From assembly GCF_022814865.1 (NCBI RefSeq), contig NZ_JAKVRD010000005.1:124001-188000 (forward strand): DNA of 64,000 nucleotides, read 5' to 3'. The stretch is from Shimia aestuarii (GTDB taxonomy: Bacteria; Pseudomonadota; Alphaproteobacteria; Rhodobacterales; Rhodobacteraceae). Both the position numbers and the translations under genes were made by a program. The notes under the pieces are model-generated. The model was not told where the DNA came from and made no database searches. It saw nothing but the letters and a program-made list of their open reading frames with translations. This document shows, in pieces, positions 25,456 to 57,245 of the stretch (within the stretch, counting starts at the first letter, position 1; each line of letters starts with the position of its first letter).

Positions 25456-25488
25456 GATATAGACGCAATACCGACGTGATACCGACGT
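25456..25488. repeat. 11-bp iteron cluster A upstream of the BrnA-like gene
   Basis: Three contiguous 11-bp units: GATATAGACGC (degenerate), AATACCGACGT and GATACCGACGT. The same units in the same order occur at 57202-57245. A GGGTTTTTCCC-like stretch follows, as GCGTTTCCC does at the other locus. The period of one helical turn suggests cooperative binding by an oligomeric DNA-binding protein. Confidence 0.7.
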
Positions 25489-25510
25489 GGGTTTTTCCCC
25501 TCCTGAACGC

Positions 25511-25536
25511 AAAAGGCCCCGCCATGTGGCAGGGCC
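25511..25536 (-). terminator. Rho-independent terminator of the DUF2892 gene
   Basis: On the minus strand AGGCCCTGCC pairs with GGCGGGGCCT (25514-25536, one mismatch, 4-nt loop), followed by TTTT (25511-25514). It lies 25 bp after the DUF2892 stop. Confidence 0.8.
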
Positions 25537-25560
25537 TATGCGTGAGTGGTGTGGCGGGAT

Positions 25561-25761
25561 TTAGAAGGCCTTGCCTTCCTTCGCGCCGAGCTTCTTGAAG
25601 ACAATCGCCGCCGGGCAGAACCCGGTGATCGACGATTGCATGAGGTTCGCTCCGACGAACACTGTCAACCACATGAAAAGCGGCGAGACAAAGACGGTCA
25701 GCGCAACGCTAAGCAGCACCATACCGCCAGCGAACATGAACATGATGCGATCCAAGCACAT
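25561..25761 (-). CDS. DUF2892 (YgaP-like transmembrane) small membrane protein
   Basis: A 66-aa protein with two transmembrane helices (MFMFAGGMVLLSVALTVFV and LFMWLTVFVGANLMQSSI), then the family signature TGFCPAAIVFKKLG containing a Cys. This is the membrane domain found fused to rhodanese in YgaP or as a stand-alone protein, often in sulfide- or persulfide-responsive loci. The ATG at 25761 was chosen because AAGGA lies 9 bases upstream; the in-frame ATG at 25788 has no SD. A promoter with an overlapping SqrR/BigR-type palindrome lies upstream. A role in reactive sulfur handling is inferred. Confidence 0.85.
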   Translation of the reverse strand: MCLDRIMFMFAGGMVLLSVALTVFVSPLFMWLTVFVGANLMQSSITGFCPAAIVFKKLGAKEGKAF

Positions 25762-25818
25762 TGTTTTTATTCCTTTTTCCGGTGCCACAGCCCAAGAATC
25801 AGCGCGGCTTCAGGAACG

Positions 25819-25859
25819 ACAATACGCGAGTGGAAATAAATATTCAATAGTCAGAATAT
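25819..25859 (-). promoter_or_regulatory. Promoter with SqrR/BigR-type operator for the DUF2892 gene
   Basis: ATATTC-N8-GAATAT (25840-25859) is a perfect inverted repeat with the ATTC-N8-GAAT core I recall for the sulfide-responsive ArsR-family repressors SqrR/BigR/YgaV. On the minus strand a promoter reads TTGAAT (complement of 25842-25847), a 17-bp spacer and TATTGT (complement of 25819-25824). Its -35 box lies inside the operator, so bound repressor would block it. The patch is AT-rich against the local background. Confidence 0.7.
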
Positions 25860-57201: not shown

Positions 57202-57245
57202 CGCACAGACGCGATACCGACGGAATACCGACGTGATACCGATCC
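57202..57245. repeat. 11-bp iteron cluster B between asparaginase and mreB
   Basis: Contiguous 11-bp units: CGCACAGACGC (degenerate), GATACCGACGG, AATACCGACGT and GATACCGATCC. The middle units equal those at 25456-25488 upstream of the BrnA-like gene, in the same order, and both clusters run into a G-x-GTTT-(TT)-CCC stretch. The cluster is 35 bp after the asparaginase stop and about 170 bp before the mreB start. Confidence 0.7.

Follow-up and report, generated by a model that had tools for sequence, protein, structure and literature searches.

The 64-kb stretch of DNA from Shimia aestuarii analysed here (hereafter the window) carries on its minus strand, at positions 25561-25761, a gene for a 66-aa membrane protein of the YgaP-like_TM (DUF2892) family with an invariant Cys in a TGFCP motif. 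The length is counted from the ATG at 25761; the corresponding entry in the list of open reading frames is 75 aa long and begins at a GTG further upstream. A perfect palindrome, ATATTC-N8-GAATAT (ATATTCAATAGTCAGAATAT, 25840-25859, assigned to neither strand), precedes the gene and overlaps with promoter-like elements. A sequence-only reading of the window had proposed that this palindrome is a sulfide-type (SqrR/BigR) operator controlling a stand-alone DUF2892 gene.

The 66-aa protein matched PF11127 (YgaP-like_TM, DUF2892) with an E value of 2e-11 and 44.3 bits, above the cut-off of 25.3 bits, and matched the solved membrane domain of YgaP (2mpn) with an E value of 1.3e-4, which bears out the family originally assigned to it. 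It consists of the membrane domain only, and the rhodanese domain that completes a full YgaP is not fused to it. The Cys of the TGFCP motif was found in all of the best 80 of 94 relatives, 77 with TGFCP, 2 with TGLCP, and 1 with TKWCP, and was aligned to Ser at chain position 53 of 2mpn. With an offset of 106, which agrees with the residue letters named in passages of PMC4730233, 2mpn position 53 becomes residue 159 of YgaP, and the same passages describe position 159 as a native Cys that was changed to Ser in the constructs. It is thus inferred from the alignment that the TGFCP Cys is common to YgaP. In a predicted model of 65 residues, from which the initial Met was omitted (mean pLDDT 83.5), helices span residues 2-23, 26-45, and 49-56, and the Cys (residue 48 without the initial Met) is located just after the second helix. 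Fold comparison of this model gave a best match of only E 3.3, as is expected because the protein is small and helical.

The palindrome contains the core ATTC-N8-GAAT (25842-25857), which is given in passages of PMC9774250 as the deduced recognition site of SqrR. Both the perfect palindrome and this core had been pointed out before, and the palindrome proved to be the sole exact match within the window. Under an order-1 Markov model of the window, 0.0005 occurrences of the 6-8-6 palindrome are expected against the one observed, and the bare core was observed once with 1.0 occurrences expected. On the minus strand, a -35 element TTGAAT (25842-25847) lies inside the gene-proximal half-site of the operator and is separated by 17 bp from a -10 element TATTGT (25819-25824), exactly as the sequence-only reading had described. 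These two hexamers score 8 of 12, and the promoter was absent from a strict sigma-70 scan, in which 9 of 12 matches were needed. TTGAAT was found at the same position in 13 of the 14 relatives that carry the exact site, and a hexamer beginning with TA follows 16 or 17 bp past it in those 13. The overlap of the operator with the promoter at the -35 element, a geometry kept in relatives, is predicted to allow repression.

The window also contains, at 25464-25487 and 57210-57244, a repeat with an 11-bp period and the core AATACCGACGTGATACCGACG, often in three or four units. It has 69 matches in the genome at no more than one mismatch, a few of them overlapping, and its backward control has none; 22 of 30 fetched copies were located outside rough gene calls.

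Conservation of the site and its occurrence at other genes

The upstream regions of all of the best 80 of 94 relatives of the DUF2892 protein were scanned for the exact site within 170 bp. ATTC-N8-GAAT was detected in 14 of the 80, and all 14 belong to the 22 loci that were chosen as Rhodobacteraceae-like by label or likeness; it is absent in the remaining 8 of these 22. When other spacings were examined at the same 22 loci, with the other 58 omitted, spacings of 3-7 and 9-14 gave 0-2 sites each, against 14 for N8. The conservation of this exact spacing argues for a function of the putative operator. The DUF2892 gene was found in 6 of 24 genomes sampled from the genus of the window, and each of the 6 copies has AT[T/G]C-N8-GAAT upstream, at 51-81 bp from the start of the match. 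Four of these have exact ATTC and two have ATGC, one of the two being the nearest relative. Two entries, L028 and L133, whose contigs have the same length (18,782 bases), are probably one locus that is counted in both the set of 80 relatives and the genus set. DUF2892 genes were also seen by eye near genes for RND efflux pumps at L036, L037, L040, L045, L051, and L087, with an oxidoreductase gene resembling SQR nearby at L051.

In the whole genome, the bare motif occurs 30 times with N8, 25 times with N7, and 17 times with N9, and we rejected these counts as proof of function. Because these counts show no clear enrichment of the bare core, the case for an operator function rests on position and conservation. 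Eleven of the 30 sites fall outside rough gene calls, and together with a site just before a likely gene start (C4:85895) they make up a best-placed set of 12. Seven of the 12 belong to the window gene, a rhodanese gene (C7), a SulP gene (C2), a TsoY gene (C12), the sox cluster (C8), and two genes for MBL-fold proteins; at the other five no sulfur link is evident. The site on C7 precedes a gene for a 119-aa single-domain rhodanese, and the one on C8 lies between SoxV-like and SoxY genes. On C2 it is found at the gene for a SulP transporter, which lies downstream of two paired genes, DUF2892 and DUF442-SQR. The TsoY-family gene on C12 has a second site beside it, which is one of 4 sites in the genome with the variant RYATTC-N8-GCATRY. 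The two MBL-fold genes (C3, C4) were considered as SoxH candidates; neither reaches the curated threshold of the NCBIfam family that it matches best, and a link of theirs to sulfur is no more than possible.

The sequence-only reading had suggested a scan for the same operator at other sulfur genes, and such sites were found to be strongly conserved at two gene families of the genus. The exact site is present at 7 of 7 orthologues of the rhodanese (at least 59% identity) and at 13 of 15 orthologues of TsoY, or 14 of 15 with the relaxed pattern, own genes included, and spacings of 4-7 and 9-12 gave zero sites at both. None of the 19 fetched rhodanese loci of lower similarity (at most 44% identity) carries the site, even with the relaxed pattern. 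Conservation was weak at the DUF442-SQR operon, where the relaxed site occurs at 5 of 11 loci versus 4 of 11 for a spacing of 11, and this operon is at best a tentative candidate target. The rhodanese is present in 5 of the 6 genomes with the DUF2892 gene versus 7 of 24 overall (hypergeometric 0.003, uncorrected for relatedness).

Two further arrangements were observed at these genes. With the relaxed pattern, ten of the 15 TsoY genes (L116, G000:C12:66812-68035, and L199-L212) have sites in pairs, at a distance of 25 or 56-58 bp. Directly before the DUF442-SQR fusion (L124, G000:C2, 7065-8980) is another, more distantly related gene of the DUF2892 family, and GAATGC-N8-GAATAT is found upstream of it.

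Candidate repressors and alternative explanations

The sequence-only reading would have been refuted had the genome lacked a SqrR/BigR homologue, but two such proteins were found. Nine proteins matched HTH_5, some of them other ArsR-like proteins, and two of the nine, encoded on C8 and C23, possess the sensing Cys pair of SqrR. Their best match was solved SqrR (6o8k-6o8o; 6O8N is named SqrR in passages of PMC9774590), with E values of 6.7e-37 for C8 and 2.5e-32 for C23. Identity to the matched stretch of SqrR was 62 of 96 aligned columns for C8 and 60 of 92 for C23 (about 65% each). Against the NCBIfam BigR equivalog they scored 93 and 108 bits, short of its cut-off of 155. The C8 regulator gene adjoins sox-type genes and a YeeE/YedE transporter gene, and the C23 regulator gene stands alone. 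Genes for relatives of the C8 and C23 regulators are absent from the 64-kb window, in agreement with the earlier remark that no regulator gene lies beside the DUF2892 gene; a co-directional thioesterase-like ORF does adjoin it.

In a tree with many long or weak branches, R. capsulatus SqrR grouped with the sox-linked C8 type and not with C23 (support 95/82). When types were assigned by identity, the tree being used only for the rows included in it, the 24 genus genomes comprised 22 with the C23 type and 16 with the C8 type, and each of them had at least one of the two. TsoY operators are present in G010 and G017, where C23 alone was found, and also in G020 and G021, where C8 alone was found, although the absence of C23 from the latter two is uncertain since G020 is 93% and G021 88% complete. 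The persistence of operators where only one type was found suggests that C8 and C23 may both read the site. In the own genome, no operator was found before the C8 or C23 gene, even with the relaxed pattern.

A SqrR-type gene was found in the fetched DNA of 21 of the 80 DUF2892 loci. Where SqrR-family genes adjoin DUF2892 genes, the exact site was found in 4 of 22 start regions of the former, two of which are from two Kaistia species with an identical site sequence. At L140 and L141, from two genomes that are more distant, an ArsR gene is located directly before a gene for a fused, YgaP-like rhodanese-DUF2892 protein, and the ArsR places are matches of the C23 regulator with 43% and 39% identity.

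The conserved position of the palindrome and the SqrR-type regulators in the genome support the proposed sulfide-type operator. On these sequence comparisons, the DUF2892 promoter very probably contains a SqrR-type operator at 25840-25859, with binding and induction as its predicted consequences. It could be argued that the operator is real but is used by another ArsR-type or dimeric regulator, which recognizes a similar site and responds to a signal other than persulfide, such as a metal or peroxide. The other ArsR-like proteins among the nine HTH_5 matches would be candidates, and binding by C8 or C23 is itself a prediction. Against this, the site accompanies the rhodanese and TsoY genes, precedes SqrR-family genes beside DUF2892 genes, and matches the SqrR motif in passages of PMC9774250, and we consider the involvement of such a regulator unlikely.

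Another explanation is that the DUF2892 gene shares its main transcript with the thioesterase-like gene upstream, the operator having a minor modulating role. The two genes are co-directional, the operator starts 3 bp past the stop codon of the thioesterase-like ORF, and the gene order is the same in the nearest relative. This explanation is opposed by the promoter-like elements in the operator and by an intrinsic-terminator-like hairpin downstream of the DUF2892 gene (25514-25537, minus strand). RNA folding of 25500-25545 gave -28.7 kcal/mol (z -5.9), and a 1-kb stretch contained 3 terminator-like sites versus 0.9 in shuffles. Moreover, only 3 of the 80 DUF2892 loci were found to hold a thioesterase relative, which is adjacent in 1 of them (flank lengths differ), whereas the operator is retained. 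The DUF2892 message is probably monocistronic, and main control from the thioesterase-like gene is improbable. That the palindrome is a chance product of AT-rich promoter DNA is scarcely credible, since its exact spacing is conserved before three gene families, even though chance alone would give about one bare core per window and the core lacks clear enrichment in the genome.

A probable dispersed persulfide regulon and known systems

We therefore favor, as highly likely, a SqrR/SoxR/BigR-type operator through which persulfides would derepress DUF2892, with an unlinked regulator and a rhodanese as the probable partner of the product. When sulfane sulfur is absent, a repressor dimer over the -35 element would block RNA polymerase. 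As persulfides or polysulfides build up, the two conserved Cys residues would be bridged, the repressor would leave the DNA, and DUF2892 would be transcribed. The regulator may be the SqrR/SoxR-type protein encoded beside the sox genes on C8 or its stand-alone paralogue on C23, or the two may both act. DUF2892 encodes a small helical protein of the inner membrane whose invariant Cys is positioned shortly past the second helix. Its probable partner is the separate, co-regulated single-domain rhodanese, and the pair, which resembles a split E. coli YgaP, would handle or move sulfane sulfur at the membrane. A more specific form is a two-gene sulfane-sulfur relay under dual control by two SqrR paralogues with one operator, in which the membrane Cys would take persulfide from the rhodanese and then pass on or export the sulfur. 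We regard this relay as a speculative possibility, with the chances rather against it.

The sequence-only reading had called the locus a minimal reactive-sulfur unit. The operator and the DUF2892 gene that make up this unit stand, but the gene is better described as one of a dispersed regulon, since the site is also found at the rhodanese and TsoY genes. The best reading of the sequence data is that the DUF2892 gene is an unlinked member of a conserved SqrR-type persulfide regulon, a small one being predicted for the window's genus. DUF2892 proteins are widespread, and a conserved persulfide-type operator before lone copies offers a regulatory handle on them. It would assign lone DUF2892 proteins to the response to reactive sulfur, with the co-regulated rhodanese as their likely partner, and it points to a candidate Cys. 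Within a library of open-licence papers, none was found that treats BigR and DUF2892 together, one combines DUF2892 with rhodanese, and one combines DUF2892 with sulfide; of 1,239 papers for TsoY, the 20 listed seem from their titles to be unrelated.

A sulfide-related DUF2892 gene has been described in Azospira suillum. According to passages of PMC5358917, the transcript of Dsui_0042 is ~10-fold higher under sulfide-oxidizing conditions, and loss of the gene by deletion had a minor effect, with the onset slightly delayed and the rate unchanged. These passages describe no regulator or operator, in contrast to the arrangement proposed here. In Hyphomicrobium denitrificans, SoxR and sHdrR, which together with BigR form one repressor family with sulfur-gene targets, likewise act on sulfur genes as two paralogues per cell (passages of PMC10451225, PMC12423496, PMC5823870). 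The targets named there for H. denitrificans and BigR are sulfur-oxidation or blh operons, unlike the lone DUF2892 gene.

The E. coli ygaV-ygaP system is similar in that YgaV, a SqrR/BigR homologue, binds over the RNA polymerase site of its promoter (ygaVP), and the region that it covers there includes a sequence similar to ATTC-N8-GAAT; YgaV also binds the katG promoter, and such a motif was not found in the bound area of the latter (passages of PMC9774250). YgaP, whose membrane domain is treated in connection with thiocyanate (passages of PMC4730233), joins a rhodanese domain to this membrane domain (passages of PMC4730233 and PMC9774250), whereas in the present genome the two are separate genes on different contigs and the regulator is unlinked. 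The Rhodobacter capsulatus regulon, in which the rhodanese gene rcc01557 and sqr are under SqrR control (passages of PMC9995734), shares with the present one the operator core, a homologous two-Cys repressor, and a rhodanese target (passages of PMC9995734 and PMC9774250). It differs from the present case, which has a lone DUF2892 target, two SqrR-type paralogues, and an induction that is predicted. The known SqrR system is thus extended here to a protein of which little is understood, and a system of a new kind is not involved.
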